Shown piece by piece: positions 1,466 through 19,376 of a DNA stretch of 19,376 nt. How positions within the stretch are numbered: the stretch's first letter is position 1; each line of letters opens with the position of its first letter. The DNA is from a bacterium. GTDB lineage: Bacteria; UBP15; UBA6099; JAJRTR01. Where the stretch lies: the NCBI GenBank assembly GCA_024278215.1, contig JAJRTR010000056.1, forward strand, positions 1-19,376, read 5' to 3'. Both the position numbers and the translations under genes were made by a program. The notes under the pieces are model-generated. The model saw only the letters and a program-made list of their open reading frames with translations. It was not told where the DNA came from and searched no databases.

Positions 1466-1606
1466 TGCTTCCCCGTTTCCGGCGCAGCCGGATTGCCGTC
1501 CTTTTGTGATATGTCAGAATTCTAACTGAAGCTGTAAGAAAATCATAACTGTGAATGAAAAGAAGCTCACTACTGCCATGTCACACTTGTAAATGTGCGG
1601 GATGTG

Positions 1607-1628
1607 GGCGGGATCACCGCAGCCCGCC
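1607..1628. other. GC-rich hairpin between two minus-strand genes
   Basis: GGCGGG (1607-1612) pairs with CCCGCC (1623-1628) across a 10-base loop, 22 bases past the stop of the GH2-like gene. No U-tract follows in the minus direction, so a classical intrinsic terminator is doubtful. It may be an attenuator or an mRNA end-protecting stem. The rest of 1466-1649 shows nothing else I can name. Confidence 0.3.
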
Positions 1629-1649
1629 GGATCATATTATTGATAACCG

Positions 1650-4100: not shown

Positions 4101-4155
4101 AAGACGGTAAAAGTATACAAAAAAAAACAGTGGGTGTATAGAAAAACAAACTTAT

Positions 4156-4204
4156 GAGCCAATCGCAGCCGACCGCGCCGCGAAAATAATTTTGCAAGCG
4201 GCTC
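4156..4204 (-). repeat. MITE-like palindromic element, copy A (49 bp)
   Basis: On the minus strand the element begins GAGCCGCTTGCAAAATT and ends GCGATTGGCTC, so its ends are inverted repeats (GAGCC/GGCTC and beyond). It is flanked on both sides by TTAT (4152-4155 and 4205-4208), which looks like a 4-bp target-site duplication. It shares GAGCCG-TTGCAAAATT and GGTCGGCTGC with the element at 8146-8208, and a related stretch at 8910-8950. It sits between the divergent GH2-like and peptidase genes, where it could affect either promoter. Confidence 0.6.
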
Positions 4205-4267
4205 TTATGTCCTGCCGCGTCGCATGTCCATTACAGGCTGAAAGCTGTTCCCGGCGCGATTTCAGGA

Positions 4268-4273
4268 TATAAT
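4268..4273 (+). promoter_or_regulatory. Consensus -10 box just upstream of the membrane peptidase gene
   Basis: A perfect TATAAT lies at 4268-4273, only 6 bases before the ATG at 4280. A transcript starting 6-8 bases downstream would begin at or next to that ATG. Either the mRNA is leaderless or translation starts at the in-frame ATG at 4295, preceded by GGGAAAAAAG. No good -35 hexamer is present (4245-4250 is CTGTTC). Confidence 0.35.
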
Positions 4274-4279
4274 TATTTT

Positions 4280-6646: not shown

Positions 6647-6705
6647 GATGATTACGAAGAAGCGTAGATGCCGGCATTTAACCCCTTGACTTTGCATGGC
6701 ATGTG

Positions 6706-6738
6706 GTATTTTGCATCGCCACTGTTGTATTTTGCAAC
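6706..6738 (+). promoter_or_regulatory. Two direct copies of GTATTTTGCA spaced 21 bp, upstream of the NtrC-type gene
   Basis: GTATTTTGCA occurs at 6706-6715 and 6727-6736, exactly 21 bp (two helical turns) apart. The second copy lies within TGTTGTATTTTGCAAC (6723-6738). That 16-mer recurs unchanged at 8216-8231 ahead of the sigma-54 promoter. The flanks make CTGTTG (6722-6727)/CAACAG (6735-6740) an inverted repeat. This is probably an operator for the adjacent regulator, which would then be autoregulated. A TTGACT at 6686-6691 followed at 15 bp by TATTTT could be a housekeeping promoter overlapping the first copy, but the spacing is short. Confidence 0.5.
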
Positions 6739-6785
6739 AGTTGTGATATTATTGATATGAAAATATTGTGCGAGTTGAGCCGAAG

Positions 6786-8147
6786 ATGAGAAAAAATGCG
6801 CGATTACTGATAGTGGACGACGATGAGGTGGCACGGAAAAACCTGGCCAGGATATTAAAACGCAAAGGCTGCCGGATTTCTTCCGTAGCTTCCGGTGCTG
6901 AGGCTGTCGCGAAGCTTGGCAGGGAAAGTTTCGACCTGGTCCTGGCCGACCTGATTCTCGAGGAGGGCGTCAGTGGTCTTGATGTACTTGAAGCAGCGAA
7001 AAAGAGATGCCGCGACACGGAGGTTATCATCATTACCGGTTATGCCTCCGTGGAGACTGCTATCGGGGCGATGAAAAAAGGTGCGTATCACTATCTTCAG
7101 AAACCTTTTCGCGCTGAGGAAGTCAGACACCTTGCGGCACAGGCTCTGGAGAAGACAAGGTTGAGAAACCAGGTCAGAGAACTGGAAGAGGAAATACGGT
7201 CCGGCGCTCAAACGCATGACATTATAGGCAAAAGCAGAAAAATTCTTTCGATATTGGATTTGATCGAACAGGTGGCACCCACGGATGCCAATGTGATAAT
7301 TACAGGTGAATCGGGGACAGGCAAGGAACTGGTCGCCTCCGCCATACACAGGCAAAGCAGAAGGGCCGGGAAACACTTTCTGCCGATAAACTGCGCGTCT
7401 TTCACCGACGAGCTGCTGGCGAACGAGCTTTTCGGACATGAAAAGGATGCCTACACGGGGGCGACATCGTCGCGTGCCGGGCTGCTCGAGAGCGCCGACG
7501 GGGGCACGGTGTTTTTCTACGAAGTGGCTGAAATGCCTGTCCCGATGCAGGCCAAGCTGCTTCGCGTAATCCAGGAACGCGAGTTGATCCGTGTCGGCGG
7601 AAACCGTCACATTCCGATAGATGTGCGAATTATCGCAGCGACGAACAAAGACCTGAAAAAACATGTCGCCCAGGGTTTATTCCGCGAGGACCTTTATTAT
7701 CGCCTCAATGTGATCCACCTCCACATGCCCGCGCTGGCCGAGCACAAGGAAGACATACCGCTCCTTGCCTCCTATCTCCTCGAGCAGATACTAAAACAGA
7801 TGGATAAGCCGGTGAAAGGGTTTTCGGATGAGGCGATGAAAATATTGAAGGGGTACGATTATCCGGGCAATGTGAGAGAACTGGAGAATATTATAGAGAG
7901 GGCTGCCGCGCTGTGCCGCACGGATGTGATAGATACAGATGTTCTGCCGGATGATCTCAAGGGTGTGGCGATATACAGATATGATACGGAAAAGCACGGC
8001 ATGAAAAGCATGAAAGAGATCGAAAAAGAGTATATCCGCTGGGTTTTGAACCAGGTCGGCCATAACAAATCCCGTGCCGCCAAAATTCTTGGAATCGACA
8101 GGGCGTCTTTATACCGGAAGCTGAAAAACTATGAAATAGGCGATTGA
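6786..8147 (+). CDS. NtrC-type sigma-54-dependent response regulator with atypical ATPase motifs
   Basis: 453 residues from ATG 6786; a GTG at 6768 would add six residues but has no better ribosome-binding site. Order: receiver domain (residues 5-120, acidic triad DDD 10-12, phospho-acceptor D55, then ITGYAS and QKPF), linker helix, AAA+ sigma-54 activation domain (about 145-380) and a Fis-type helix-turn-helix (about 405-450, NKSRAAKILGIDRASLYRK). Walker A is canonical (G174-ESGTGKE) and the arginine-finger region FREDLYYRLNV is intact. Two key motifs are changed. The sigma-54 contact loop GAFTGA reads D221-AYTGA, and Walker B, normally LFLDE, reads VFFY245E. Each differs from consensus by what could be a single base. 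It probably controls the sigma-54 promoters at 8367-8415; whether it still hydrolyses ATP normally is open. Its stop codon overlaps a MITE-like element. Confidence 0.93.
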   Translation: MRKNARLLIVDDDEVARKNLARILKRKGCRISSVASGAEAVAKLGRESFDLVLADLILEEGVSGLDVLEAAKKRCRDTEVIIITGYASVETAIGAMKKGAYHYLQKPFRAEEVRHLAAQALEKTRLRNQVRELEEEIRSGAQTHDIIGKSRKILSILDLIEQVAPTDANVIITGESGTGKELVASAIHRQSRRAGKHFLPINCASFTDELLANELFGHEKDAYTGATSSRAGLLESADGGTVFFYEVAEMPVPMQAKLLRVIQERELIRVGGNRHIPIDVRIIAATNKDLKKHVAQGLFREDLYYRLNVIHLHMPALAEHKEDIPLLASYLLEQILKQMDKPVKGFSDEAMKILKGYDYPGNVRELENIIERAAALCRTDVIDTDVLPDDLKGVAIYRYDTEKHGMKSMKEIEKEYIRWVLNQVGHNKSRAAKILGIDRASLYRKLKNYEIGD

Positions 8148-8208
8148 GCCGATTGCAAAATTCCGATTCTGCCGTGGTCGGCTGCAAACATAATTCTGCG
8201 ATCGGCTC
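8146..8208 (+). repeat. MITE-like palindromic element, copy B (63 bp), inserted in a stop codon
   Basis: The element starts GAGCCGATTGC (8146-8156) and ends GCGATCGGCTC (8198-8208), 10 of 11 bases inverted. It is flanked by GATT on both sides (8142-8145 and 8209-8212), a probable 4-bp target duplication. The TGA stop of the NtrC-type gene takes its T from the flank and GA from the element. Removing the element plus one GATT gives GGC GAT TAA, so the protein would end at the same residue. An internal GGTCGGCTGC is shared with copy A. Confidence 0.6.
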
Positions 8209-8215
8209 GATTAAG

Positions 8216-8231
8216 TGTTGTATTTTGCAAC
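8216..8231 (+). promoter_or_regulatory. Putative enhancer (upstream activating sequence) for the NtrC-type regulator
   Basis: TGTTGTATTTTGCAAC here is identical over 16 bases to 6723-6738 upstream of the regulator gene. The GTTG/CAAC ends are inverted, as expected for a dimeric Fis-type DNA-binding domain. It lies about 170 bp upstream of the -24 element at 8401, a typical enhancer distance for sigma-54 systems. Confidence 0.5.
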
Positions 8232-8249
8232 GATGAATCTCTGAAGGAG

Positions 8250-8310
8250 TTCGTCTGAAAAACCGGGAAAAAATCTCCTGAAAAAAAACTTGAAACTTTT
8301 TTTAGACGAA
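8250..8310. repeat. Long A/T-tract inverted repeat between enhancer and promoters
   Basis: TTCGTCTGAAAAA (8250-8262) and TTTTTTAGACGAA (8298-8310) are inverted with one G-T mismatch, around a 35-base loop. A-tracts at 8258-8262, 8268-8273 and 8281-8288 and a T-tract at 8297-8303 recur every 13-15 bases, so the DNA may be bent. It could help loop the enhancer onto the promoter, or act as a weak transcript-end hairpin for the regulator gene. The sequence does not decide between these. Confidence 0.35.
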
Positions 8311-8366
8311 ACCACATTATCCCCTATTGGCAATAACAGCATTATCATATCATCTACCCCAGCCGT

Positions 8367-8382
8367 TGGCAGGCAATATGCA
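8367..8382 (+). promoter_or_regulatory. Second, weaker sigma-54-like -24/-12 site
   Basis: TGGCAGGCAATATGCA matches TGGCACGnnnnTTGCA at all but two defined positions and keeps the obligatory GG and GC exactly 12 bases apart (8368 and 8380). It lies 33 bp upstream of a perfect site, so it may be an alternative promoter or a sigma-54 holding site. Confidence 0.45.
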
Positions 8383-8399
8383 AAGCCAATTATGACAGT

Positions 8400-8415
8400 T
8401 GGCACGGGTTTTGCT
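8400..8415 (+). promoter_or_regulatory. Sigma-54 (-24/-12) promoter of the stress/permease/signalling operon
   Basis: TGGCACGGGTTTTGCT is a full match to the RpoN consensus TGGCACGnnnnTTGCW, with GG at 8401-8402 and GC at 8413-8414. Transcription would start near 8426, leaving a leader of about 16 bases with a GAGGCGGTGA ribosome-binding site. It fits the NtrC-type activator encoded immediately upstream. Confidence 0.85.
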
Positions 8416-8441
8416 TAGAGAAAGCGAGGCGGTGAATTGAG

Positions 8442-8924
8442 TTGGCATCGGAACGTTGCATACTTACACTTTTTGATAATCCCGACATCAGGCCGGAGGC
8501 GGTCAGGTATGCATGTGGGCTGGCAAAACGTGTAAACGCGAGCATCATTATGTTTCTGGTGCTGATTTTCAGCGAGCAGAGCGGGCAGAAGCCCGACGAC
8601 ATCCGGGTGCAGGAATTGAGAACGCTGGGTGAGGGGTTGTTGAGTCCGTTTCTTGAGGCGGCAAAGAGAGAGGGCATTGAGGTGCGCGGGGAAGTCAGGG
8701 TGGGGGAACCGGCATCTGAAATGCTGAAGTTCCTTGCCGAAGATCATGTGCTTCATTCGGTGGTGTGGGGCGGAGACAACAGTGTTCTGGACACAAAGAG
8801 GTTAAGGCATGAAGATCACTGGCTGGACCGGATAAAGGATAAATTCGGGTGTCCGCTCGTGTCGCCGAAAGGACCGGATGCGCAGGAGCGAAAAGAAGGT
8901 ATTTCCATAGAGCCGATTGCATAA
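8442..8924 (+). CDS. Divergent universal-stress-protein-like protein
   Basis: 160 residues from a TTG at 8442. A stop lies just upstream in frame (8433), the next in-frame ATG is deep in the domain, and GGTGA at 8431-8435 is well spaced. The alternating strand/helix pattern (RCILTLFD, PEAVRYACGLAKRVNASIIMFLVL, EGIEVRGEVRVGEPASEMLKFL) is that of the UspA alpha/beta fold. The usual C-terminal ATP-binding motif (Gly-x2-Gly-x9-Gly-Ser/Thr) is not seen; WGGDNSVLDTKRLRHEDHW occupies that place, so nucleotide binding is doubtful. It is the first gene of the sigma-54 operon, 69 bp before the kinase-like gene. The last residues, EPIA and the stop, are encoded by a copy of the dispersed repeat. Confidence 0.75.
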   Translation: MASERCILTLFDNPDIRPEAVRYACGLAKRVNASIIMFLVLIFSEQSGQKPDDIRVQELRTLGEGLLSPFLEAAKREGIEVRGEVRVGEPASEMLKFLAEDHVLHSVVWGGDNSVLDTKRLRHEDHWLDRIKDKFGCPLVSPKGPDAQERKEGISIEPIA

Positions 8925-8950
8925 TTCTGATTCGGGCGGCGGTCGGCACC
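8910..8950 (+). repeat. Dispersed repeat, copy C (partial element overlapping a gene end)
   Basis: GAGCCGATTGCATAATT...GGTCGGC matches the first two thirds of copy B (8146-8208) with scattered changes. The right-hand inverted end is degenerate and no flanking duplication is visible. Read in frame it supplies Glu-Pro-Ile-Ala-stop to the universal-stress-like protein, so the repeat has become its 3' coding end. Confidence 0.5.
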
Positions 8951-8993
8951 ACAGAAAAACAGTAAAGAAACCTGCGGTGAAAGGGATAGAGAG

Positions 8994-10538
8994 ATGCAGA
9001 TTATATGTATAGGCAGAGGTAGTTATTCGAAAGGGAAAGAACTTGCGGAGACACTGGCGGAAAATATCGGCTGCCAGTGCGTGAGCAGGGAAGACATGAT
9101 CGAGGAGGCGATAAAAAGCGGGGTAGCCGTGGGCAAACTCGAGACGGCGATACTCAAGCCGCACATCTTCAACGAGCGCCTGGCGATAGAGAAAGAGCTT
9201 TTTCAGGCGTTCAGCACGAAATATCTGCTCGAGCGTGCGGCGACGAACGGCGGATTGGTTTATCATGGCCGCGCCGGTCATCTTCTGCTGCCCGGCATCA
9301 GCCACGTGCTTCGAGTCCGCGTGGTAGCCGACAAGGAGTTCAGGATCAATGACGTAATGAACCGGCTGAATCTGAACCGCGCAAAAGCCAAATCGTATAT
9401 CGAAAGTGTCGATGAAGATATCAGGCGATGGGTGAGGATGTATTACGGGGTGGAATGGGAAGAGGCCTCTCAGTATGATGTGATTCTCAACCTCGAGCAG
9501 ATGCACGCCTGGAATGCGGCGACCGCATTATGTGCACTTGCGGAATTGCCCGAGTTCCAGATAACACCGGCGTCGAGGAAAGCTATAGCGGACCAGCTTC
9601 TTGCGGCGAGGGCGCGTCTGGCGCTGGCCGAGGATGAATCGACCTATAACGCCCGGCTCGCTGTCCGGGCCGACAACGGCACAGTGTCCGTGGTGTACCA
9701 GTTGCAGCAGGCGGAGGCGGCGGACAAGATACCGGAAGTTCTCAAAAAGCTCGACGGGGTGAAAGATGTCGTATGCACGATGGCGCAATCCAACATCTTA
9801 TGGATTCAGGAGAAGTATGACCCGGAATCGGAATCGTTCAAGAATATATTCAGCCTGGCTCAGAAATGGGACTCCGCGGTCGAGCTGTTGCGCCTCGTGC
9901 CGAGCGAGGGAAACGAGCAGGACGAGACAATACAGGTGACGGGCGCTCCGGATGCGGCTGAACTTAAAAGTGGAACCGGCGGCGGGCGAAAAAAAGGCGC
10001 GTATAACGGCGGAATCGAGGACGATGATGATGAGCAGGTCGAGCGGGAGGACGACGGCGGACTGAACAGGACACTGACCGAGCTTGCCAGGCTGGGCCGG
10101 TCCGGTGGCGGGCGTTCGGTGCGAACGACTCCTCGCAGGCTGGTAAAAGCGATAGATCATTCTGTGGAATATAATCTGCTTGTCGTCGGCGATGTATTTC
10201 TCTCCAAGGGGCACGCGGCCCAGGTGCGTATGGCCCAGGAGATGTGCGGGCTTCTCAATGAAAAGATAAAAGTGCCGGTGGTGATGGCGGACGAACTCAA
10301 GCAGCAATTCTTCTTCGGCACAAGACAACTGCTCAACATGCTCGCATATCTTACCATCACCGCAGTGATTTATTTTACCGTATTCACTCATCAGGCACAG
10401 ATTCTGGAATTCCTGCATGACGACAACCCCACGGCTAAAATTCTTTCCGCCGGCGCGGTATTCGTCTTTGTGCCTGTTGTTGCTTATGTCTACGGCACAG
10501 CGAGCAGTCTGTTTCTGAAACTCCTGCGGATCGAATAG
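8994..10538 (+). CDS. Cytidylate-kinase-like / BON-like / membrane fusion protein
   Basis: 514 residues; ATG with AAGGGA seven bases upstream. Residues 1-205 resemble the cytidylate-kinase-like family. A P-loop-like G9-SYSKGK15 carries Glu where Ser/Thr is usual, followed by LAETLAENIGCQCVSREDMI, an Arg-containing lid (NRAKAKSYIESVDEDIRRW) and YDVILNLEQM. Residues about 215-285 (TYNARLAVRADNG, LDGVKDVVCTMAQS) look like BON-type folds. A low-complexity acidic linker (GIEDDDDEQVEREDDGG) leads to a small alpha/beta segment (YNLLVVGDVFLSKGHAAQVR) and two membrane helices at about 446-464 and 484-503, ending close to the C terminus. The catalytic part should face the cytoplasm. Its neighbour is TauE/SafE, so it may regulate or couple to that permease. 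Whether it phosphorylates any nucleotide is unproven. Confidence 0.75.
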   Translation: MQIICIGRGSYSKGKELAETLAENIGCQCVSREDMIEEAIKSGVAVGKLETAILKPHIFNERLAIEKELFQAFSTKYLLERAATNGGLVYHGRAGHLLLPGISHVLRVRVVADKEFRINDVMNRLNLNRAKAKSYIESVDEDIRRWVRMYYGVEWEEASQYDVILNLEQMHAWNAATALCALAELPEFQITPASRKAIADQLLAARARLALAEDESTYNARLAVRADNGTVSVVYQLQQAEAADKIPEVLKKLDGVKDVVCTMAQSNILWIQEKYDPESESFKNIFSLAQKWDSAVELLRLVPSEGNEQDETIQVTGAPDAAELKSGTGGGRKKGAYNGGIEDDDDEQVEREDDGGLNRTLTELARLGRSGGGRSVRTTPRRLVKAIDHSVEYNLLVVGDVFLSKGHAAQVRMAQEMCGLLNEKIKVPVVMADELKQQFFFGTRQLLNMLAYLTITAVIYFTVFTHQAQILEFLHDDNPTAKILSAGAVFVFVPVVAYVYGTASSLFLKLLRIE

Positions 10539-10630
10539 TATAATTGAACCTTTGCGTTTTCATAGAAACAACCGATTTTTCCGGGGACACGGTCCGGAGT
10601 TAAAGAACAAGTATACGGAGGAACAGGATA

Positions 10631-11767
10631 ATGTTGGGAGAGTTAGGCGGATTGTTTATTTCACTGCATTTCTCAAATGCCGCTCAAGTAGTAGTACTGG
10701 GCTTTGTCGGAGGAGTGCTGAGCGGATTCATCGGTAGTGGGGGCGCGTTTTTTATGACTCCCGGCATGATGAACCTGGGCGTGCCCGGAATCGTGGCCGT
10801 GGGCAGCAACATCACGCACAAGTTCGGCAAAGCGATGATGGGCTCTAAGAAGCACGGGGAAATGGGGCACGTGGACAAGAAATTAGGTGGTTATCTCCTG
10901 GTGACGTCATTCGTCGGCATCAGGATCGCTGTCTGGATCAACAGCATGTTGTTCAAGGGCGGCGGCGGCAGCCACGGGGTAGGCGGGGGCGCGGCGTCCG
11001 ATCTCTATATCAGCCTTGTGTTTGTCACCATTTTGTTTTTTGTCGCCGTGTCGATGCTCAAGGACGCTTTTTCATCCGGCGGTTCCGATGATTCCGAGGG
11101 TGGGCCCTCCACCAAGCTGGTCGAGTTCTTTTCAAGGCTTTATCTTCCGCCGATGATCAATTTCCCGGTGGCGGACGTAAAGATTTCGCTGTGGATACTC
11201 ATGATTGTCGGGCTTGCCACAGGCTACCTTGCGGGCACCATCGGAGTCGGCGGATTCATCGGTGTTCCCGCCATGATCTATGTCTTCGGGCTCCCCACGC
11301 AGGTCGCCGCCGGCACCGAACTGTATCTCGCCATGTTTATGGGCGGTTTCGGCGCTCTCAATTACGCATACGAGGGTTATGTGGATATCCGTCTGACTAT
11401 GCTGATGTATCTCGGCTCACTTATCGGTATTTATTTCGGCGCATACGGCACAAAAGTTGTCAAAGAGGTAATCATTCGTATCGTTACCGGAATGATCATT
11501 ATTCTATGTGTTTTCAGCCGCGGTATCGCCATACCCATGTATATGCGCCAGTTGGGTTGGCTGAATATCAACCCCGGCTATGATATTTACTTCAACCAGG
11601 CCAGCAAGGCGCTGCTGTTCATCAGTGGAATCACGGGCACGCTCGTTATTTTATTTTACGTCGTCAAGGCCTACCGCCAGCGAAACCGCACCTATGCCAC
11701 ACTCAAGGCAACCAGCACTATGAAACAGCGGATGGAAGCTGCCGGTGTGAAGGCCGCGGGCAGTTGA
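10631..11767 (+). CDS. TauE/SafE-family (DUF81) anion permease
   Basis: 378 residues; the ATG has a strong GGAGG nine bases upstream. The two inverted halves of the family are visible: GFVGGVLSGFIGSGGAFFM near residue 25 and ATGYLAGTIGVGGFIGVPAM near residue 200. Each is followed by several hydrophobic helices, about eight to nine in total. A Gly-rich loop (GGGGSHGVGGG) and a hydrophilic loop (SSGGSDDSEGG) separate the halves. Family members export or import sulfite, sulfoacetate or other small organosulfur anions; the substrate here cannot be read from sequence. It lies 92 bp behind the kinase-like gene in the same direction, and that interval shows only the ribosome-binding site. Confidence 0.88.
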   Translation: MLGELGGLFISLHFSNAAQVVVLGFVGGVLSGFIGSGGAFFMTPGMMNLGVPGIVAVGSNITHKFGKAMMGSKKHGEMGHVDKKLGGYLLVTSFVGIRIAVWINSMLFKGGGGSHGVGGGAASDLYISLVFVTILFFVAVSMLKDAFSSGGSDDSEGGPSTKLVEFFSRLYLPPMINFPVADVKISLWILMIVGLATGYLAGTIGVGGFIGVPAMIYVFGLPTQVAAGTELYLAMFMGGFGALNYAYEGYVDIRLTMLMYLGSLIGIYFGAYGTKVVKEVIIRIVTGMIIILCVFSRGIAIPMYMRQLGWLNINPGYDIYFNQASKALLFISGITGTLVILFYVVKAYRQRNRTYATLKATSTMKQRMEAAGVKAAGS

Positions 11768-11782
11768 AAGCACCGGCTTTCA
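11765..11782 (+). terminator. Hairpin at the permease stop codon
   Basis: TGAAAGC (11765-11771) pairs perfectly with GCTTTCA (11776-11782) around ACCG, and a GTTTTT follows nine bases on. The stem begins at the TGA stop itself. It may be a partial terminator separating the upstream part of the operon from the signalling part. The distance to the T-run makes it weak. Confidence 0.35.
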
Positions 11783-11973
11783 CCATAAATGTTTTTCGCA
11801 ACAACTGCCGAAAAACGCAGTGTTTGATACAATATCAACGGAACCTGCGCTTCAGAATGATACAGCGGCGCTTCGACAGGGGCCATCTCATTTATTTACG
11901 CTCGTAAGCGACAACAACCTGTCGCCTTCAGCGCGACAGAGCCCCGCGACGAAACCTGGAGAAAGAGCAATCT
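11783..11973 (+). promoter_or_regulatory. Leader of the first PEP-synthase-like gene with two inverted repeats
   Basis: No convincing gene lies here. The region holds a palindrome, TTGATACAATATCAA at 11824-11838, which could be an operator, and a 7-bp hairpin, CTGTCGC/GCGACAG at 11919-11939. The ribosome-binding site GGAGAAAGAG (11958-11967) supports the ATG at 11974. No sigma-54 site is visible. Confidence 0.3.
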
Positions 11974-14343
11974 ATGAACTGGTGGCGGAAACTATCAGGC
12001 ACGCAGCCTAAACTTGATCCGAATACGATTTTGAGGCTGAAATGCGCCAGGTTTCATCATGTGCAGGAGAACTATAAGAAGTTCAACAACCTGATAAATG
12101 ACGCGATTGAAAAACTGGGCGGCGAGTATGTCATCGACAAACAGTATCTCTCGTCTCTCCTCGAGAACGCTTTCAGCCTTGCCGGCGAAATCGTGCACGA
12201 CATGAACATGATGTCCGGTTATCAATACAGTGACCTTTTTTTCAAACTTGACAGGATGAAATCGAATCTCAGGCGTATTCTCGCGTGGCAGCCACAGATA
12301 AAATCCGGCGACCTGGTTATCTCGCTTTCCGACATTGATGAACTTGACCACTACCACCAGGTCGGCGGTATTTTCACCCGCCTTGCCGAAATAAAACAGC
12401 GATTGGGTCTGCTCGTGCCGGAGGGTTTCGTTATTTCATTCTCCGCTTTTTCCATGTTTGTTGATTACAACGGGCTCGAACCGCTCATGAACCTTGCAGA
12501 TGCGCGGCCTACAAAGGTTATGGAGGAGTTGCGCGGCAAAATGCGCGTTGCAACCCTCCCGCCCGATCTCGCGGGCGACATCGAGACGGCTGTGCGCCGG
12601 CTGTGCGAAATATACGAACCACCACACAGATTCATTCTCAGGGGCGCCGCGCTGGGTGAGGAATATAATAAACATTCGGCAGGCAACCTCTGTGCCGTGG
12701 AAGCGGTCGGTCCCGGCGATGTCCTGAATGCTTACAAAGCGGTGTTGGCCGCTATGTATGGCGGACAGGCGGTTGAGAACCGCATCAAGCTGGGACTCGA
12801 TCCCAAATGTGATGTGGCGGTAGCCGTATCCAGAATGATAAACGCCGAGATCGAAGGCAGCATCTACACCGTCAGTCCCGACACCCCCCATAACGGAAAT
12901 ATCCGCATAGAAACATTATCGAACGGCGCGCCCGACGCGGCATACGAGGCATCCCGCAGACCTCCCTACAACGTCGAAACATATCCGGAAGAAGAAACAT
13001 CTAAAACCCGACTCGCACGGCGCGACATCTCAGGCCTCGCGGAAAAGGCGATGCGGATTGAGCGTTATTTCAAAGGCCCGCAGGAGATCGTATGGGTGCA
13101 GGATAAGAAAAAAGACACCTACATTATACAATCAAAACCTCTCATACTGGATGTGGAGCACAGCATTCCGCCGGGAGAGCTGGCCGAGGCAGTCGCACGC
13201 CACGAGTCGCTGTATGACCAGGCGGGCAAAGTCGCCTGCCCCGGCATAGCGTGCGGCAGCGTCCACCTGATCTCCGGAAGGCAGGACCTCGAAAACCTGC
13301 CGGAGAACGGCGTGATTGTGATCGAGAAGTTCGAGCCAGTAATGGACCTTATGCTCGTATTGTCGCGGGCAGCGGCAATACTCGCCGACACCGGCGCGCC
13401 TACCGGACATGCCGCATCGCTCGCCCGCGAATTCCATGTCCCGACCATTGTGGGACTGGGCGATGCCTCACGGCGCCTCAAGCCCGGCGACACTGTAACC
13501 GTGGACGCCGATGATAATGTCGTCTATATGGGCGAAGTCAGCGAACTGCTCCACTACCAGCTCCAGGAATACTTAAATCTTGAAAATGAGAAAGAATATA
13601 ATCTATTGCGGTTCATGCTGCACCGCATATCCTCCGGCGGAGTTGTAGGCGCCGGATCGAGCAGGACAAAACTCAGGGACCGCGAAACTCTCGACAACAT
13701 CATCCGTTTCTGCATGGACGTAACCAGTCGCGAAATGACACATGCGATCGAGTCGATAAGGGCGGGATTACTCAAATCAGCTCCACACATTGAAAGCGGC
13801 CCGGGGCTGAAACTTCACCTGATCGACCTCGGAGACGGCATCGAACCCGCGGGAGCATCAGGGAATAAAATCATTGAAATGGATGCGGTCAGGTCGCCGC
13901 TGTTTCGTGCCCTGTGGGAAGGACTGTCCGGCGCGGAAGCGGCGAATCGCAATCCTGCCGCTTTCGGACTTGCCGCGATCTCGGCGGAACGTCTCCATCT
14001 GAACCTGGCGACAGGCGCGCGCACTTATATTCTGGATGCGTACCAGTGCGGCGACGACGAATACAATTACATCTACGTGCACATTTCCGACCGTTTGTAC
14101 GCAGAAGACAGGAGCGAGCGCCGGATTCTGTGGCTGAAGGGGATCCTTGAGAAATTCGATTTTCGCACTTTTCGCAGCGATGATGGAATTACCGTATGGA
14201 GATATGTCATGCCGGCAACAGAAACCGCGCGGCTATTGACTATAATAGGCAGGATGCTGGGCTACGCCGAGAATCAGGATATGCAAGTACATGCCGGTAT
14301 GCCTGTCGAAAAAGAAATAGAAGTATTCCTGAAACAACAATAA
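11974..14343 (+). CDS. PEP-synthase-like signalling protein 1 (ATP-binding + phosphohistidine domains, no PEP barrel)
   Basis: 789 residues; strong ribosome-binding site. Residues 1-115 are helical and align in pattern with the start of the second paralogue (14895). Residues about 125-390 are a diverged PEP/pyruvate-binding ATP-grasp-type domain: GGIFTRLAEIKQRLGLLVPEGFVIS, then ILR223GAALGEE where PEP synthases have RSSATAED, and GPQEIVWVQD...YIIQSKPL. Residues about 420-520 form the mobile swivel domain with the phosphoryl-carrier H479 in TGAPTGH479AASLAREFHVP. The C-terminal TIM barrel of PEP synthase/PPDK, which binds PEP/pyruvate, is absent. Instead there are about 270 residues of unknown fold (ETLDNIIRFCMDVTSREM, ARTYILDAYQCGDDEYNYIY). 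Seven bases before its stop ends the coding block of a receiver gene pair. Likely role: ATP-dependent histidine phosphorylation feeding an unknown acceptor. Confidence 0.8.
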   Translation: MNWWRKLSGTQPKLDPNTILRLKCARFHHVQENYKKFNNLINDAIEKLGGEYVIDKQYLSSLLENAFSLAGEIVHDMNMMSGYQYSDLFFKLDRMKSNLRRILAWQPQIKSGDLVISLSDIDELDHYHQVGGIFTRLAEIKQRLGLLVPEGFVISFSAFSMFVDYNGLEPLMNLADARPTKVMEELRGKMRVATLPPDLAGDIETAVRRLCEIYEPPHRFILRGAALGEEYNKHSAGNLCAVEAVGPGDVLNAYKAVLAAMYGGQAVENRIKLGLDPKCDVAVAVSRMINAEIEGSIYTVSPDTPHNGNIRIETLSNGAPDAAYEASRRPPYNVETYPEEETSKTRLARRDISGLAEKAMRIERYFKGPQEIVWVQDKKKDTYIIQSKPLILDVEHSIPPGELAEAVARHESLYDQAGKVACPGIACGSVHLISGRQDLENLPENGVIVIEKFEPVMDLMLVLSRAAAILADTGAPTGHAASLAREFHVPTIVGLGDASRRLKPGDTVTVDADDNVVYMGEVSELLHYQLQEYLNLENEKEYNLLRFMLHRISSGGVVGAGSSRTKLRDRETLDNIIRFCMDVTSREMTHAIESIRAGLLKSAPHIESGPGLKLHLIDLGDGIEPAGASGNKIIEMDAVRSPLFRALWEGLSGAEAANRNPAAFGLAAISAERLHLNLATGARTYILDAYQCGDDEYNYIYVHISDRLYAEDRSERRILWLKGILEKFDFRTFRSDDGITVWRYVMPATETARLLTIIGRMLGYAENQDMQVHAGMPVEKEIEVFLKQQ

Positions 14344-14356
14344 GGAGATGTCTTTT

Positions 14357-14740
14357 ATGAGTAATAAATTGCGAACTCTGATATTGGATGACGAATCAAT
14401 AGTTTGTAAGCGTCTCAAACCGGCCCTCGAAAAAAGCGGCTACGAGGTTGAAACTTTTGATAATCCGACCGATGCCCTCAAAAGGATCGACCAGGAAGAG
14501 TTCGATATAGTAGTCACGGACATCAGGATGGATGAGATCGACGGGATACAGGTGCTCGAACATGTTCTCGCAAGATCGAGCCGGACCAGGGTCATTATTA
14601 TCACCGGTTACGCAACGGTCGAAATGGCGCGTGAAGCGCTCGCCAAAGGCGCTTTCGACTTTATTGCCAAACCCTTCAAACCCAACGATCTGCGCGCGGT
14701 CATCGCAAAAGCCGCCAAGGAACTCAAAAGCGAAAAATAA
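14357..14740 (+). CDS. Stand-alone receiver (CheY-like single-domain response regulator)
   Basis: 127 residues. I choose ATG 14357 because AAGGAG (14342-14347) is spaced nine bases from it; ATG 14348 abuts that site. The entire protein is one receiver domain: D11-D12 acid pair, phospho-acceptor D55 in VVTD55IRMDEIDG, the Thr of ITGYAT and the Lys of AKPFKP. No output domain follows, so it acts by protein-protein contact or as a relay intermediate. It begins 13 bases after the stop of the PEP-synthase-like gene, and AAGGAG overlaps that gene's stop. It sits between the two PEP-synthase-like paralogues and shortly before the histidine kinase, a position that makes it the obvious shared partner. 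Confidence 0.92.
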   Translation: MSNKLRTLILDDESIVCKRLKPALEKSGYEVETFDNPTDALKRIDQEEFDIVVTDIRMDEIDGIQVLEHVLARSSRTRVIIITGYATVEMAREALAKGAFDFIAKPFKPNDLRAVIAKAAKELKSEK

Positions 14741-14750
14741 TTGGGTCAGG

Positions 14751-14785
14751 CCGGGATAATTGCATAATTGAGCCCGGTTGTTTTT
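14751..14785 (+). terminator. Probable intrinsic terminator after the receiver gene
   Basis: CCGGG (14751-14755) pairs with CCCGG (14773-14777). Inside, AATT (14758-14761) can pair with AATT (14766-14769) around GCAT. TTGTTTTT follows at once. The inner ATTGCATAATT also occurs in the dispersed repeat at 8910-8950. Confidence 0.5.
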
Positions 14786-14799
14786 GCGCTTTTCCCAAT

Positions 14800-14823
14800 G
14801 TTCCCAACGGGAATGGTGGGAAC
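14800..14823. promoter_or_regulatory. Inverted repeat (possible operator) upstream of PEP-synthase-like gene 2
   Basis: GTTCCCA (14800-14806) and TGGGAAC (14817-14823) are perfectly inverted with a 10-base spacer. Allowing one mismatch, the arms extend by AA/TT. The right arm overlaps the -24 region of the sigma-54-like site at 14814-14829, so a bound protein could block it. Confidence 0.35.
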
Positions 14824-14829
14824 GTTGCA
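14814..14829 (+). promoter_or_regulatory. Possible sigma-54-like promoter of PEP-synthase-like gene 2
   Basis: TGGTGGGAACGTTGCA has the invariant GG and GC exactly 12 bases apart and a perfect TTGCA at -12. The -24 half matches TGGCACG at only four of seven positions. It would start transcription near 14840, 55 bases before the ATG. It follows a likely terminator, so a separate promoter is expected here. Confidence 0.4.
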
Positions 14830-14894
14830 ATACACATGCAGGATAAATAAGATACAAAGAACACACCCGGTTGTTGTCATTGAGGAGAATCTGG

Positions 14895-16757
14895 ATGTCG
14901 ATTTTTTACCGAAGGATGGTTCATACCGATTTCTACAATGCCGATGCGATGCGGCGCAGAAGCGAGGTGAAAAGAAGCATTCTGAACATGAGCGGACTTC
15001 TGCGCCGGGACATCGAGAATCTGGAATCCGAAATCCGCTATTTCCCTCCGTACAGTTCCCGTATGCGGCAATATATTCTGCAAATTCTCGAAAGAACGCT
15101 GCTCCTTACTGAAAACCTCAATTTTTTAACCGGAGATAAGTATCAGTTCCTATATGCGGCGCATCAGCAGGTGGAAAACGCTGTACGCGCATATTTTAAG
15201 TCTCTCGAATCCCGAGAAGGCTCTGTCCTGGTCGTTTCACCGGCTGAAGCGGACACTGTCGATGAAAAACTTATCGGCGACAAGTCCGCAAAACTTTTCA
15301 ACCTGAAAAAAAACTTCCCCGGGAACGTGTCTCCCGGTTTTGTTGTTACCACTGCGGCCTATCGACTGTTTATTGATGAAAACGAATTGGAAGAGAAAAT
15401 TCATACGCTACTTAAAGACCTGGATGTAATCGCCAATCGGGACCTGTTCCACATCCGTACCCGCGCCATCAGGAAGTTGATGGAAGAAGCCGCTGTCCCT
15501 GAACGCATAACGGCGGAGATACGCGAGTGGAGCGAGAAAACCGCCGGTCGGGACAGCCGATGGGCCGTGCGCTCGAGCGGCATCGGCGAAGGCGGGCGAG
15601 CGACCTTTGCCGGGCAGTTCGACAGCTTCCTCAATGTCGCGGGCGACAGCCTGCCCGACGCATACCGGAAAGTCATCGCGAGCCGTTTCACTGATCGGGC
15701 TGTTTATTATCGTCTGGCCGGCGGCTTCAGTGAAACCGATACGCCTATGGCGGTTTTGTTTATGCCCATGATCGACGCCCGTTCCGCTGGAGTGCTCTAC
15801 ACGAGTGACCCCGGCGACAGTTCGTCGGATCGCATGATTCTGAACTCCGTGTGGGGGCTCGCCGCGGACCTGTTAAGCGGGCGTGCCGACCCCGATACAT
15901 TTATTGTCAGCCGTTCGGCACCGGGGCGGATAATTAAAAGCTATGTAGCCGAAAAGCAAACCGCCGTGGTACCCGGCGCCGATGGGCTGACCGGCAAAGA
16001 GCAACTCGCAACGGCCAGGAGCGGCGCGCCGTCGTTGTCGGAAAACGAGATATCCGATCTGGCGCAACTCGGCCTTGCGATAGAAAAACACCTTGGCGCT
16101 CCGCAGGATATCGAGTGGGTAGTGGATCGACAAAACAAGTACTGGATTGTGCAGTCGCGGTGCCTTCTGCTGCCGCGGCGGCGCGACCGGAGTGGCGGCA
16201 GACCGGAACAAGCCGAGTTGCTGACAGAGGGCGGCGATACGATCTTCCCCGGCTGGACGACCGGCCCCGTGTTCACTCCCGGCAGCGATGCCGCTTTGAT
16301 CGAGACGCCGTCGGGCGCGATACTGGTTGTGAAGAAACTTCATTCGGGAATTGTCGAGGTTCTGCCTTACCTCGCCGGCTTGATCGCCGAACAAAGCGAT
16401 CATACGGGACGCATAGCTTCGCGTGTGCAGGAATATGGGCTTCCATGCCTGTTCGGGGTGGACAATGCAACGGAAAAACTCCCGCCCGGTACGCATATCG
16501 TACTGGATGCCGCGCACCGCTCTGTCTTCGCCGCCTCAGCGCCCGAAACGGATGACGCCCCTGACGCCAGAGGCGACAATGACGGTTTTTCCAGTGTGCC
16601 CGGCACACTTTCCGAGCTGATATTCAAGTCGAAACATACCGATCCGGTCGACCTCTCAAGCGAATCCGCACAGGGCGTCTCTCTTTATGATATTGTTAGG
16701 TTCGTTCATGGAAAAGCAGCGAAATTCAATCCTGTTTCAGGACGGGATCAGGGCTGA
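14895..16757 (+). CDS. PEP-synthase-like signalling protein 2 (shorter paralogue)
   Basis: 620 residues. ATG 14895 is chosen because GAGGAG (14882-14887) lies seven bases upstream; a TTG at 14871 would add eight residues. A helical N-terminal domain (about 1-108) resembles that of paralogue 1. The ATP-binding domain is closer to classical PEP synthase: IGDKSAKLFNLKKNFPGNVSPGFVV, R226-SSGIGEGGRATFAGQFDSFLNV, AGVLYTSDP, and GAPQDIEWVVDRQNKYWIVQSR. The swivel domain keeps the carrier histidine in EQSDH503TGRIASRVQEYGLP. The protein ends soon after, with SLYDIVRFVHGKAAKF matching only the beginning of the C-terminal region of paralogue 1. It therefore lacks both the PEP barrel and most of the other paralogue's tail. 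It lies 89 bp before the histidine kinase. Probably an ATP-dependent phosphohistidine protein in the same circuit. Confidence 0.82.
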   Translation: MSIFYRRMVHTDFYNADAMRRRSEVKRSILNMSGLLRRDIENLESEIRYFPPYSSRMRQYILQILERTLLLTENLNFLTGDKYQFLYAAHQQVENAVRAYFKSLESREGSVLVVSPAEADTVDEKLIGDKSAKLFNLKKNFPGNVSPGFVVTTAAYRLFIDENELEEKIHTLLKDLDVIANRDLFHIRTRAIRKLMEEAAVPERITAEIREWSEKTAGRDSRWAVRSSGIGEGGRATFAGQFDSFLNVAGDSLPDAYRKVIASRFTDRAVYYRLAGGFSETDTPMAVLFMPMIDARSAGVLYTSDPGDSSSDRMILNSVWGLAADLLSGRADPDTFIVSRSAPGRIIKSYVAEKQTAVVPGADGLTGKEQLATARSGAPSLSENEISDLAQLGLAIEKHLGAPQDIEWVVDRQNKYWIVQSRCLLLPRRRDRSGGRPEQAELLTEGGDTIFPGWTTGPVFTPGSDAALIETPSGAILVVKKLHSGIVEVLPYLAGLIAEQSDHTGRIASRVQEYGLPCLFGVDNATEKLPPGTHIVLDAAHRSVFAASAPETDDAPDARGDNDGFSSVPGTLSELIFKSKHTDPVDLSSESAQGVSLYDIVRFVHGKAAKFNPVSGRDQG

Positions 16758-16846
16758 ACCATATCCGCGACAAGGCTGCCTGCCCTACACTTCTATCGTT
16801 TTTACGCTGACCATAACCCGCGCCAATACATGGAGATCCGACGATT

Positions 16847-18460
16847 ATGAAGACCAACAGACAAAACGATGGCAACGACGACGCAATATTGAAGGATTCA
16901 CCGTATTTCCTTTCAGAGAACACAGACGTGAAGACCGCCCTGTTGAAAGACGATTCCGAAACGAAAATACTCAGGGCGCTCCTCGAGCGGCCCGGATTCA
17001 GTATCCGCGCTCGTCTGGCGCTGGGATTCCTGTTGTTTTTCGCCTTGAGCGTGGGCATCACCATCACCGCGTACATCGCCCTCAATCACATGGAGCGCAA
17101 ATTGATTTTCCTGGAAGTTGCCGATCTATTCACAAATGAGATACAACAGGCCCGCCGGTACGAGAAAAATTTCTTTCTGTACGGTTCCGACATTTCCAAT
17201 GTCCTGGAGCATATAGACATCGCCGATCAGCTTCTGGACTCCGCCAGAAGCGAGCTGGTCTCGGTAGTCGGCGAAAAAAACATGCGAACGATGGAGAGCC
17301 ATCTTAGTAAATACAAGAAACTCGTCATTAAAATAAATACACTCAGCATTGATCAGGAATCCTCCGAACTACCCGAATACAAGGAAATAGCCGAAGAGCT
17401 TCGCTCGCACGGCACGGAGATGCTATCGTTCGCAATCGACATGTCACGCAAAGAGCGCGACAAAGTCAATGACATGATACGTGTCGCCAAAATGGCTCCC
17501 GTCGTCTTTTCGATTATCATTTTTCTGCTTATGCTCTACGAGACCAATTTCCTTGCCCGGCACATTATCCGCCGCCTCAACCGACTCATGGAAGCCACCC
17601 AGCGTGTGGCGAACGGCGATTTCACCCCCATCATGCCACATCGCCGCTTCCGCGACGAGTTCACCAACCTCGCGGTGGCCATGAACAGCATGATGAGCCA
17701 GCTCATGCACCGCCATGAAATCCTGGTGCGCTCACATAAACTCCGCGCGGTGGGCACACTCACCGCAGGCGTAGCCCACGAACTGAACAACCCGATAAAC
17801 AATATCATGCTCACCTCGGAAATGCTGAAGGAGGATTACAGCGAACTCTCCGACGAAGAACGACTCGACATGGTGTCCGACCTGGTGAGCCAGGCGGAAA
17901 GAGCGCGGAAAATCGTCAGCAACCTCCTCGATTTCGCCCGGGAAAGCGAGATCGAACCGGAATTGCTCGATGTCGGACAGATTATTCGTGAAACTCTCGC
18001 GCTGGTCGGCAACCAGTTGAAGCTCCACAACGTGAAGCCGCAACTGGACATTGCACACAACCTGTCTCCCGTTCACGGTGACAAACAGCACCTCAGCCAG
18101 GTTTTCTTCAACCTGATTATGAACGCGATCGACGCAATGCCCGAGGGCGGGAAACTCATAATAAACGTATCGAACTCATCCTTCGAGGCCTCCTTTCTGG
18201 AAGTAAGAATAAGTGATACGGGGAAAGGTATCCCCGAGCATTTGATAGGCTCCATATTCGACCCGTTCTTCACCACCAAACCTACCGGCAAGGGAACCGG
18301 GCTGGGACTTTCCGTTTCCATGGGTATCATCAGAAAACACGGGGGCGCCATCCGGGTGGAAAGCAAAGTCGGCGAAGGGACGTCCTTTTCAATCCTGCTG
18401 CCCATCTCCACGGTGCCGGCCGAGATCATGCACGAAAAATCTCAGAAAAACGGGGAATGA
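16847..18460 (+). CDS. Membrane sensor histidine kinase (helical sensor, HAMP, HisKA, HATPase)
   Basis: 537 residues; GGAGA ten bases before the ATG. A cytoplasmic N-terminal stretch of about 55 residues precedes the first membrane helix (about 57-80). The periplasmic sensor is all-helical (about 82-220; EIQQARRYEKNFFLYG is typical of helical-bundle/HBM sensors). A second helix (about 222-240) leads into a HAMP domain (LMEATQRVANGDFTPIMP). HisKA carries the phospho-acceptor H311 in TAGVAH311ELNNPINNI. The HATPase domain shows the N box (NLIMNAIDAMPEGG), G1 (DTGKGIP), F box (FDPFFTTK) and G2 (GTGLGLS). All catalytic motifs are intact. It is the only kinase in the window. Likely targets are the receiver at 14357 and perhaps the NtrC-type regulator. 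Confidence 0.95.
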   Translation: MKTNRQNDGNDDAILKDSPYFLSENTDVKTALLKDDSETKILRALLERPGFSIRARLALGFLLFFALSVGITITAYIALNHMERKLIFLEVADLFTNEIQQARRYEKNFFLYGSDISNVLEHIDIADQLLDSARSELVSVVGEKNMRTMESHLSKYKKLVIKINTLSIDQESSELPEYKEIAEELRSHGTEMLSFAIDMSRKERDKVNDMIRVAKMAPVVFSIIIFLLMLYETNFLARHIIRRLNRLMEATQRVANGDFTPIMPHRRFRDEFTNLAVAMNSMMSQLMHRHEILVRSHKLRAVGTLTAGVAHELNNPINNIMLTSEMLKEDYSELSDEERLDMVSDLVSQAERARKIVSNLLDFARESEIEPELLDVGQIIRETLALVGNQLKLHNVKPQLDIAHNLSPVHGDKQHLSQVFFNLIMNAIDAMPEGGKLIINVSNSSFEASFLEVRISDTGKGIPEHLIGSIFDPFFTTKPTGKGTGLGLSVSMGIIRKHGGAIRVESKVGEGTSFSILLPISTVPAEIMHEKSQKNGE

Positions 18461-18764
18461 GAAACAATTCACAGCTGCATTTACAAGAAAAACCTTGTGT
18501 GTTTCTGAAAAACGATATTATTCGCTTCGCACGGATTGATTCCTGTTCCGAGGACAATATCTACAAGCAAAAATAGTTGCCGTCCCGATCGAAGCGAATA
18601 ATTCCCACAGAGTTCAGTCTGTGGCGAAAGATGTTTCCGTCGATGGGCACTTCGTAACATTATATGTAAAGCTGGTATTTTTTCTTGTTTGGTCCTATTC
18701 TATTCGGCGGGTATGTGAATACATGATAATATTGTTGAAAGGTAAATAACAGGTTGCAACATTT
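18461..18764 (+). other. 304-bp AT-rich intergenic region before the ClC gene
   Basis: No coding frame of note. It contains the long inverted repeat listed separately, a weak ACAAG/CTTGT hairpin just after the kinase gene (about 18483-18498), and possible -10-like AT-rich sequence near 18725-18732. GTTGCAAC at 18753-18760 is an 8-bp palindrome close to the ClC start. I found no sigma-54 site and no recognisable riboswitch. Confidence 0.4.
18517..18602. repeat. 13-bp perfect inverted repeat with 60-bp interior
   Basis: ATTATTCGCTTCG (18517-18529) and CGAAGCGAATAAT (18590-18602) are exact reverse complements. After a two-base mismatch, CGG (18532-18534) can also pair with CCG (18585-18587). 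It may be a structured RNA or the remnant of a small mobile element; it has no similarity to the GAGCC repeats. Confidence 0.55.
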
Positions 18765-19376
18765 ATGAAAGACAGCATTTTATCTGCGATTAACAAGGTG
18801 TCCTCGAACTATGTGAGAAAATGGATCGGATTGAGTATCCTTATAGGAATAGCAGCCGGACTGGGTGCAATACTTTTTTTCTGGGCTATCAGAGAAGTCT
18901 CCGATCTCCTGATGGTAGCCGGTGCGGGCTATAAGCCACCTGCGCCGGCAGGGGAAGGTCCGACCATACTGACGGCAATAGCCCGGCCATGGCTGTTCCC
19001 GATCATCACGGGCCTGGGCGGTCTGGCAAGCGGACTCATAGTATATTCGTTTGCGCCGGAGGCTGAAGGACACGGCACGGATTCCGCTATAGATTCTTTT
19101 CACAATAAGGGTGGTTTCATCAGGCGGCGCGTTCCGATTGTCAAGGTTATTGCTTCCGCGATAACAATAGGTTCAGGCGGTAGCGCCGGGCGTGAGGGTC
19201 CGACAGCCCAGATAGCCGCGGGCGTGGGGTCCGCACTCGCAGACCTTTTCAGACTTAAGCCGCATGACCGGCGGTTGGCTATGGCGGTGGGGATCGGCGC
19301 GGGGATCGGCGCGATATTCAAAGCGCCTCTCGGCGGTGCCATACTCAGTATGGAGATTCTCTACCGTCGCGATTTC
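18765..19376 (+). CDS. ClC-family chloride channel/antiporter (5' part, cut by window end)
   Basis: 204 residues are present from ATG 18765, and the frame is open to the last base. Membrane helices occur at about 21-43 and 75-97. The protein shows the ClC signature [11 protein letters not shown] at residues 130-140, including the gating glutamate that couples proton exchange in antiporters. It continues with GVGSALADL and [23 protein letters not shown], the usual ClC helix order. The first selectivity motif, GSGIP in E. coli ClcA, reads GHGTD here, a variant seen in many bacterial ClC proteins. The family moves chloride, and some members fluoride, across the membrane. Translation initiation is weak-looking; no clear Shine-Dalgarno stands at the usual distance. 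Following the histidine kinase after 304 bp, it may be a separate transcription unit. Confidence 0.9.

Follow-up and report, generated by a model that had tools for sequence, protein, structure and literature searches.

Here, we analyse a stretch of 19,376 nucleotides from a bacterium of the GTDB lineage UBP15 (positions 1 to 19,376, forward strand, of contig JAJRTR010000056.1, assembly GCA_024278215.1; hereafter the window, meaning this whole stretch). Two paralogues resembling phosphoenolpyruvate (PEP) synthase, here called P1 and P3, are encoded on either side of a lone receiver gene, and a histidine kinase gene follows. The genes and domains that bear on these paralogues are listed below; domain scores give how many of the columns with at least 85% conservation across 80 relatives are retained.

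11974–14343, + strand: P1, barrel-less PEP-synthase-like paralogue, putative carrier half, 789 amino acids (PPDK_N and PEP-utilizers matches; AlphaFold2 model with a mean predicted local distance difference test score, pLDDT, of 84.9)
12019–12306, + strand: P1 N-terminal helical domain with three long helices, family-specific (family hidden Markov model (HMM) N and structure model; this domain is also retained in short proteins in the P1 slot of other operons)
12319–13173, + strand: P1 ATP-grasp domain, which retains the fold but has lost catalytic residues (25/45 conserved columns)
13222–13542, + strand: P1 swivel domain (14/14 conserved columns)
13408–13410, + strand: CAT codon of P1 H479, the catalytic swivel histidine
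13561–14340, + strand: P1 C-terminal domain, with loss of conserved residues of the acceptor-like motif (12/35 conserved columns)
14348–14740, + strand: lone receiver, 130 amino acids, phospho-acceptor D58 (PF00072)
14895–16757, + strand: P3, barrel-less PEP-synthase-like paralogue, putative kinase half, 620 amino acids from ATG 14895
15255–16184, + strand: P3 ATP-grasp domain, catalytic K, R, E, Q and R intact (39/45 conserved columns)
16227–16535, + strand: P3 swivel domain, degenerate (8/14 conserved columns)
16410–16412, + strand: CGC codon of P3 Arg506, at the catalytic histidine position
16847–18460, + strand: HAMP-HisKA-HATPase_c sensor kinase, 537 amino acids, H311

The P1 and receiver genes are only 4 bp apart, and the P3 open reading frame already opens at TTG 14871 (628 amino acids from there). 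Several features that had been proposed from the letters of the window alone were borne out. Neither P1 nor P3 has the PEP/pyruvate-binding barrel, as a Pfam scan matched PPDK_N and PEP-utilizers and nothing barrel-like. The lone receiver between them has an intact phospho-acceptor (D58, which becomes the proposed D55 when counted from Met4) and retains all its motif residues (D14, D15, D58, K108), and the sensor kinase 3' of P3 is complete. The phospho-acceptors of a His-Asp phosphorelay are intact in this kinase and receiver.

Members of the protein family to which P1 and P3 are related have about 800–900 residues, arranged as a helical N-domain, an ATP-grasp domain, a swivel domain and a C-domain of about 250 residues. 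All six catalytic residues (K, R, E, Q, R, H) are kept in 188 of 210 distinct full-length relatives, and several of the remaining relatives are alignment artefacts: apparent losses of the histidine (L152, L200, L202, L244) and of E/Q (L175, L203, L250) were misalignments of the MAFFT add mode, and HMM alignments confirmed the swivel histidine. The C-domain has no Pfam match, and its conserved residues include PLNLxDP...CRTxHDIxRFxHEK...NYxxFRFxGG. A Foldseek search of the PDB with a C-domain model (pLDDT 87) gave no hit at E ≤ 0.001 (RecJ came closest, at 0.027), and the structures returned by VIA-align were unrelated, with Z values of 6.0 at most (1kaf, Z 6.0, 105 residues aligned, root-mean-square deviation (rmsd) 4.3). 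Neither search assigned a known fold, which does not make the fold new. P1 and P3 are divergent relatives and not complete family members, as both lack the C-domain motif. The family HMM for the N-domain still matches P1 with 30 and P3 with 26 bits.

The two paralogues have lost different parts of the catalytic machinery. Alignment to solved PEP synthases and to relatives places P1 H479 at the catalytic swivel histidine position, and in the P1 model a helix starts at H479, in keeping with this role. The original prediction had a swivel histidine in both proteins (H479 and H503), which is right for P1 and wrong for P3. In the ungapped alignment of P3 with its nearest orthologue (LAGLISERGNPGGHAATLAREFGVP against LAGLIAEQSDHTGRIASRVQEYGLP), the catalytic position is occupied by Arg506, while H503 lies three residues before it and aligns with the proline of the family NP motif. 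H503 is thereby excluded as an alternative catalytic histidine, given that Arg506 holds that position within 30 residues aligned without a gap. A sequencing error behind the change from histidine to arginine is unlikely, since five further conserved swivel columns are changed too. An ATP-binding domain had likewise been assigned to both proteins. Its fold is present in both (P1 model against 2ols: VIA-align Z 30.1, 270 aligned, rmsd 2.2), and the catalytic residues are complete in P3, but P1 has lost the lysine, the glutamate and an arginine in the alignments (I133, V373 and K388, respectively). The C-domain of P1 is degenerate and still recognised by its HMM (40 + 43 bits), and that of P3 is truncated, with 7/35 conserved columns. 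A frameshift does not account for the truncation, as the gap between P3 and the histidine kinase gene is only 90 bp and C-domain matches in the genome are confined to P1 and to a complete paralogue elsewhere (G000:C206).

In P1, the swivel kept its conserved columns better than the other domains did (Fisher p = 7e-5), and P1 and P3 contrast with each other in the ATP-grasp (p = 0.001) and the swivel domain (p = 0.008); these p values are descriptive, as alignment columns are not independent. By its conserved residues, P1 is the putative carrier and P3 the putative kinase, each keeping what the other has lost. P1 and P3 are thus not the equivalent phosphohistidine carriers that had been envisaged, because P1 has lost ATP-grasp residues and with them a competent ATP site, while P3 has lost the swivel histidine.

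Further genes of the window lie around this group, so that the order on the + strand is NtrC-type activator, Usp-like, Cytidylate_kin2, TauE/SafE, P1, receiver, P3, histidine kinase and ClC.

6768–8147, + strand: NtrC-type sigma-54 activator, which recurs at the operon head
8442–8924, + strand: Usp-like protein, below the Pfam cut-off, a recurrent operon member
8994–10538, + strand: Cytidylate_kin2 protein, a recurrent operon member
10631–11767, + strand: TauE/SafE-type anion permease in the same operon, repeatedly a neighbour of the family

The Cytidylate_kin2 protein is a repeated partner near many barrel-less dikinase family members. A ClC-type chloride channel gene, another anion-related neighbour, begins 3' of the histidine kinase gene (18765–19376) and runs past the window end.

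The linkage of the family to receivers is not due to chance. We compared 36 loci found by similarity to P3, 16 loci from a draw of Desulfobacterota and 13 from a Bacteria-wide draw with 19 canonical control loci (PEP synthase, PtsI or PPDK); the two draws are fairer than the P3-selected set. A lone receiver is encoded within 4 kb at 29/36, 10/16 and 7/13 of these loci, respectively, and at 0/19 canonical loci (p = 4e-5 and 5e-4 for the two draws), and a TauE neighbour is present at 26/36, 7/16, 7/13 and 0/19. Histidine kinases, too, neighbour the family far more often than they do canonical PEP synthases. The lone receiver is placed between the paralogues in 20 of 31 adjacent tandem pairs, and the phospho-acceptor aspartate (D58) is invariant in all 95 receivers adjacent to family members. 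Across 16 window-type operons, the distances of P3 co-vary with those of the receiver (r 0.86), the kinase (r 0.79, Mantel) and TauE (r 0.42), and the kinase co-varies with the receiver (r 0.71). A survey for conserved co-occurrence had been set beforehand as a test of the proposed signalling setting, with absence of linkage as the refuting outcome; the linkage is conserved and recurs in Desulfobacterota, Acidobacteria, Myxococcota and one Latescibacterota genome.

The family was found in 50 of 118 sampled Desulfobacterota genomes, with up to twelve copies per genome, but in only 12 of 386 genomes of the Bacteria-wide draw. Among Desulfovibrionales, a single stringent query detected it in 31 of 41 genomes. 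It was not found in six genomes examined from the same order as the window, and searches of Latescibacterota and Myxococcota returned no second copy of the reduced P1/P3 pair. The genome of the window encodes a complete member (G000:C206; K, R, E, Q, R, H and the full C-domain; 880 amino acids) in the order histidine kinase, TauE, PEP-synthase-like protein, receiver, receiver, Cytidylate_kin2 (L146, 9171–13615). Among other relatives, a 636-residue protein of a Latescibacterota genome (L149, 9469–11379) has all catalytic residues and no C-domain, and neither TauE nor a receiver is encoded in the 19 kb retrieved for this locus. An 801-residue protein (L258, 7302) has an intact C-domain and no recognisable swivel.

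A parallel to the window pair occurs in 25 Desulfovibrionales genomes, which share the gene order TauE, A, lone receiver, B, C (L306–L329, L150), although the receiver overlaps another called frame in a few of these loci. A is a complete member. In B the catalytic residues of the ATP-grasp domain are gone (its HMM score is 0.07 of that of A), yet the swivel histidine is kept in 25/25 genomes. C, which is kinase-competent, has an intact ATP-grasp domain together with a swivel that has diverged but is itself conserved (0.56 of the score of A). The preserved histidine on the kinase-dead B suggests that it is charged in trans. P1 and P3 are a parallel case that is reduced further, and are not orthologous to B and C.

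On this evidence our preferred reading, held tentatively and at slightly less than even chances, is that P1 and P3 form a trans-acting split dikinase that is controlled by the histidine kinase and receiver and has its output on the TauE-type permease. We infer P3-to-P1 transfer, complex formation, receiver gating and the permease output as follows. P3 would bind ATP, and phosphate would pass from its ATP-grasp domain to H479 in the swivel of P1 in trans, as P1 is predicted to be unable to use ATP on its own. The pair would be controlled by the histidine kinase and the lone receiver encoded next to it, the latter probably docking on the N-terminal helical domains shared by P1 and P3, and the output would act on the anion permease encoded just 5'.

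Several observations weigh against a split dikinase. The exact complementary state, with an intact ATP-grasp domain and histidine replaced by arginine, is known from one genome only, and C of the Desulfovibrionales trio has a histidine of its own (swivel motif GNPxDHL, His in 25/25). The P1 slot of window-type operons varies. It is filled by a complete protein in a Polyangiaceae genome (L056), by a protein without ATP-grasp domain and with Asp in place of the swivel histidine in a Latescibacterota genome (L039), and by proteins with N- and C-terminal domains only in 13 Desulfobacterota operons. The slot can thus serve without a carrier, because the 13 operons lack the swivel and L039 has Asp. 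These short homologues also favour the alternative that both proteins are pseudoenzymes, with P3 as a sensor of ATP or another adenine nucleotide, P1 as a scaffold, and the conformation of both read by the histidine kinase and receiver, with no phosphate transferred. Loss of the C-terminal motif in both proteins and of part of the catalytic core in each would fit as well, and fully dead paralogues beside a histidine kinase and receiver do exist: in Desulfovibrionales (L188, 4963–7650; L190, 4890–7637), paralogues that lost ATP-grasp and swivel histidine and keep an intact C-domain sit 5' of histidine kinase, receiver and a complete PEP-synthase-like gene. However, a scaffold requires neither the fully conserved P1 swivel nor the full set of P3 ATP-grasp residues, and it would not explain the swivel histidine on every kinase-dead B. 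We regard this alternative as unlikely, although it is the most probable of those considered here. It is far less probable that P1 and P3 are decaying duplicates without present function. Many family-invariant columns are lost in both, in a state known from a single genome, but the open reading frames are long and intact with a GC content at third codon positions similar to that of neighbouring genes, and the losses fall unevenly into different domains of the two proteins.

The source and the fate of the phosphate bear on the remaining alternatives. The complete paralogue C206, encoded in its own cluster of TauE, PEP-synthase-like protein, two receivers and Cytidylate_kin2, could phosphorylate P1 in place of P3, which counts against the split dikinase. 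That H479 is indeed charged in this way, with P3 in a separate role, seems quite improbable, as P1 and P3 are complementary and belong to one operon, and we found no evidence of cross-talk between the clusters. As to the fate, there is no obvious acceptor for the phosphate, because neither P1 nor P3 has the family C-terminal motif, which is a further difficulty for the split dikinase. Loss of this motif leaves room for the phosphohistidine itself to be the signal, or for it to meet the receiver; either may apply. A relay in which phosphate moves between H479 and Asp58, with ATP-grasp chemistry as the input to a two-component receiver, would agree with the position of the receiver inside most tandem pairs, with its invariant aspartate and with the loss of the usual acceptor domain. 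Yet the operon has a dedicated histidine kinase that co-varies with the receiver, and in the family at large the conserved C-domain could be an ordinary acceptor domain. We know of no swivel histidine that hands phosphate to a receiver, and give this relay little credence. In a related reading, the swivel phosphohistidine protein would be charged by an ATP-grasp subunit on another chain and would then exchange phosphate with the lone two-component receiver, and so control the anion permease. Such a hybrid of phosphotransferase system (PTS)/PEP-synthase chemistry with His-Asp signalling likewise appears improbable, if marginally less so.

Compared with PEP synthase (PpsA) and PPDK, P1 and P3 share the order of ATP-grasp and swivel domains, and H479 aligns with the catalytic histidine. 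They differ by the missing barrel, the additional N-terminal helical domain and another C-domain, and neither combines a competent ATP-grasp site and a swivel histidine in one chain. The best NCBIfam models for both are PEP-synthase models, far below the equivalog cut-off. Rifampin phosphotransferase (RPH) is also a barrel-less dikinase with ATP-grasp and swivel domains, and is matched structurally (Z 29.0, 382 aligned, inter-domain rmsd 15.1). Its swivel is C-terminal, whereas in P1 and P3, which stand in a signalling context, the swivel directly follows the ATP-grasp domain; no rifampin-binding domain lies between the two, and NCBIfam RPH scores are 70–210 against a cut-off of 999. Enzyme I of the PTS has a homologous swivel histidine domain (P1 swivel against 2wqd: Z 16.6, 123 aligned, rmsd 1.9) that serves in protein phosphotransfer. 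It uses PEP and carries a barrel, whereas P1 and P3 have an ATP-grasp domain and no barrel.

The gene neighbourhood resembles the Desulfovibrio 'nitrate cluster' (DVU0251-0245/Dde_0597-0605), which encodes TauE, a PtxB-like protein, a histidine kinase, a receiver, a PPDK-like protein and a dual-specificity phosphatase (PMC4001038). Transposon insertions in the genes for TauE (DVU0251), the receiver (DVU0247) and the PPDK-like protein (DVU0246/Dde_0604) confer nitrate resistance, for which a leaky thiosulfate transporter was suggested (PMC4001038). We assign the dikinase of this cluster to the family by the gene order and domain annotation of locus L265 (TauE, Phosphonate-bd, histidine kinase, receiver, an 863-residue dikinase-like protein with all four family domains, DSP phosphatase) and not by the DVU0246 sequence. 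TauE, histidine kinase, lone receiver and a dikinase-like gene occur together in both settings. The nitrate cluster, however, has one complete dikinase with PtxB-like and phosphatase genes, while the window has two half-proteins with Cytidylate_kin2, Usp and NtrC genes. Members of the family match canonical PEP-synthase profiles, and this one cluster has a mutant phenotype, nitrate resistance in sulfate reducers. A receiver-linked phosphohistidine system in which adjacent paralogues share out the kinase and carrier roles, if true, would offer a testable mechanism for this industrially relevant trait. It would also place swivel dikinases, so far linked to small-molecule phosphorylation, in a signalling setting.

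Trans dikinases and TauE/receiver clusters are already known separately. To our knowledge, their combination, a kinase/carrier split between degenerate paralogues around a receiver, and the uncharacterised C-domain are undescribed in the literature searched. The closest precedent for the split is phosphate transfer in trans between separate ATP-grasp and swivel polypeptides, which is established for HpeHI (from HpeI to HpeH) and has been proposed for its homologues CreHI and the phenylphosphate synthase PpsAB (PMC12167813). As in these two-component small-molecule dikinases, the ATP-grasp site and the swivel histidine are divided between chains, in the window at the residue level only, and HpeI (9goj) is a structural match to the ATP-grasp fold of P1 (Z 23.9, 275 aligned, rmsd 5.9). 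In HpeHI, CreHI and PpsAB, which phosphorylate phenols, the domains are cleanly separated, whereas P1 and P3 keep degenerate copies of each other's domain and differ in the C-domain and the receiver/TauE context.

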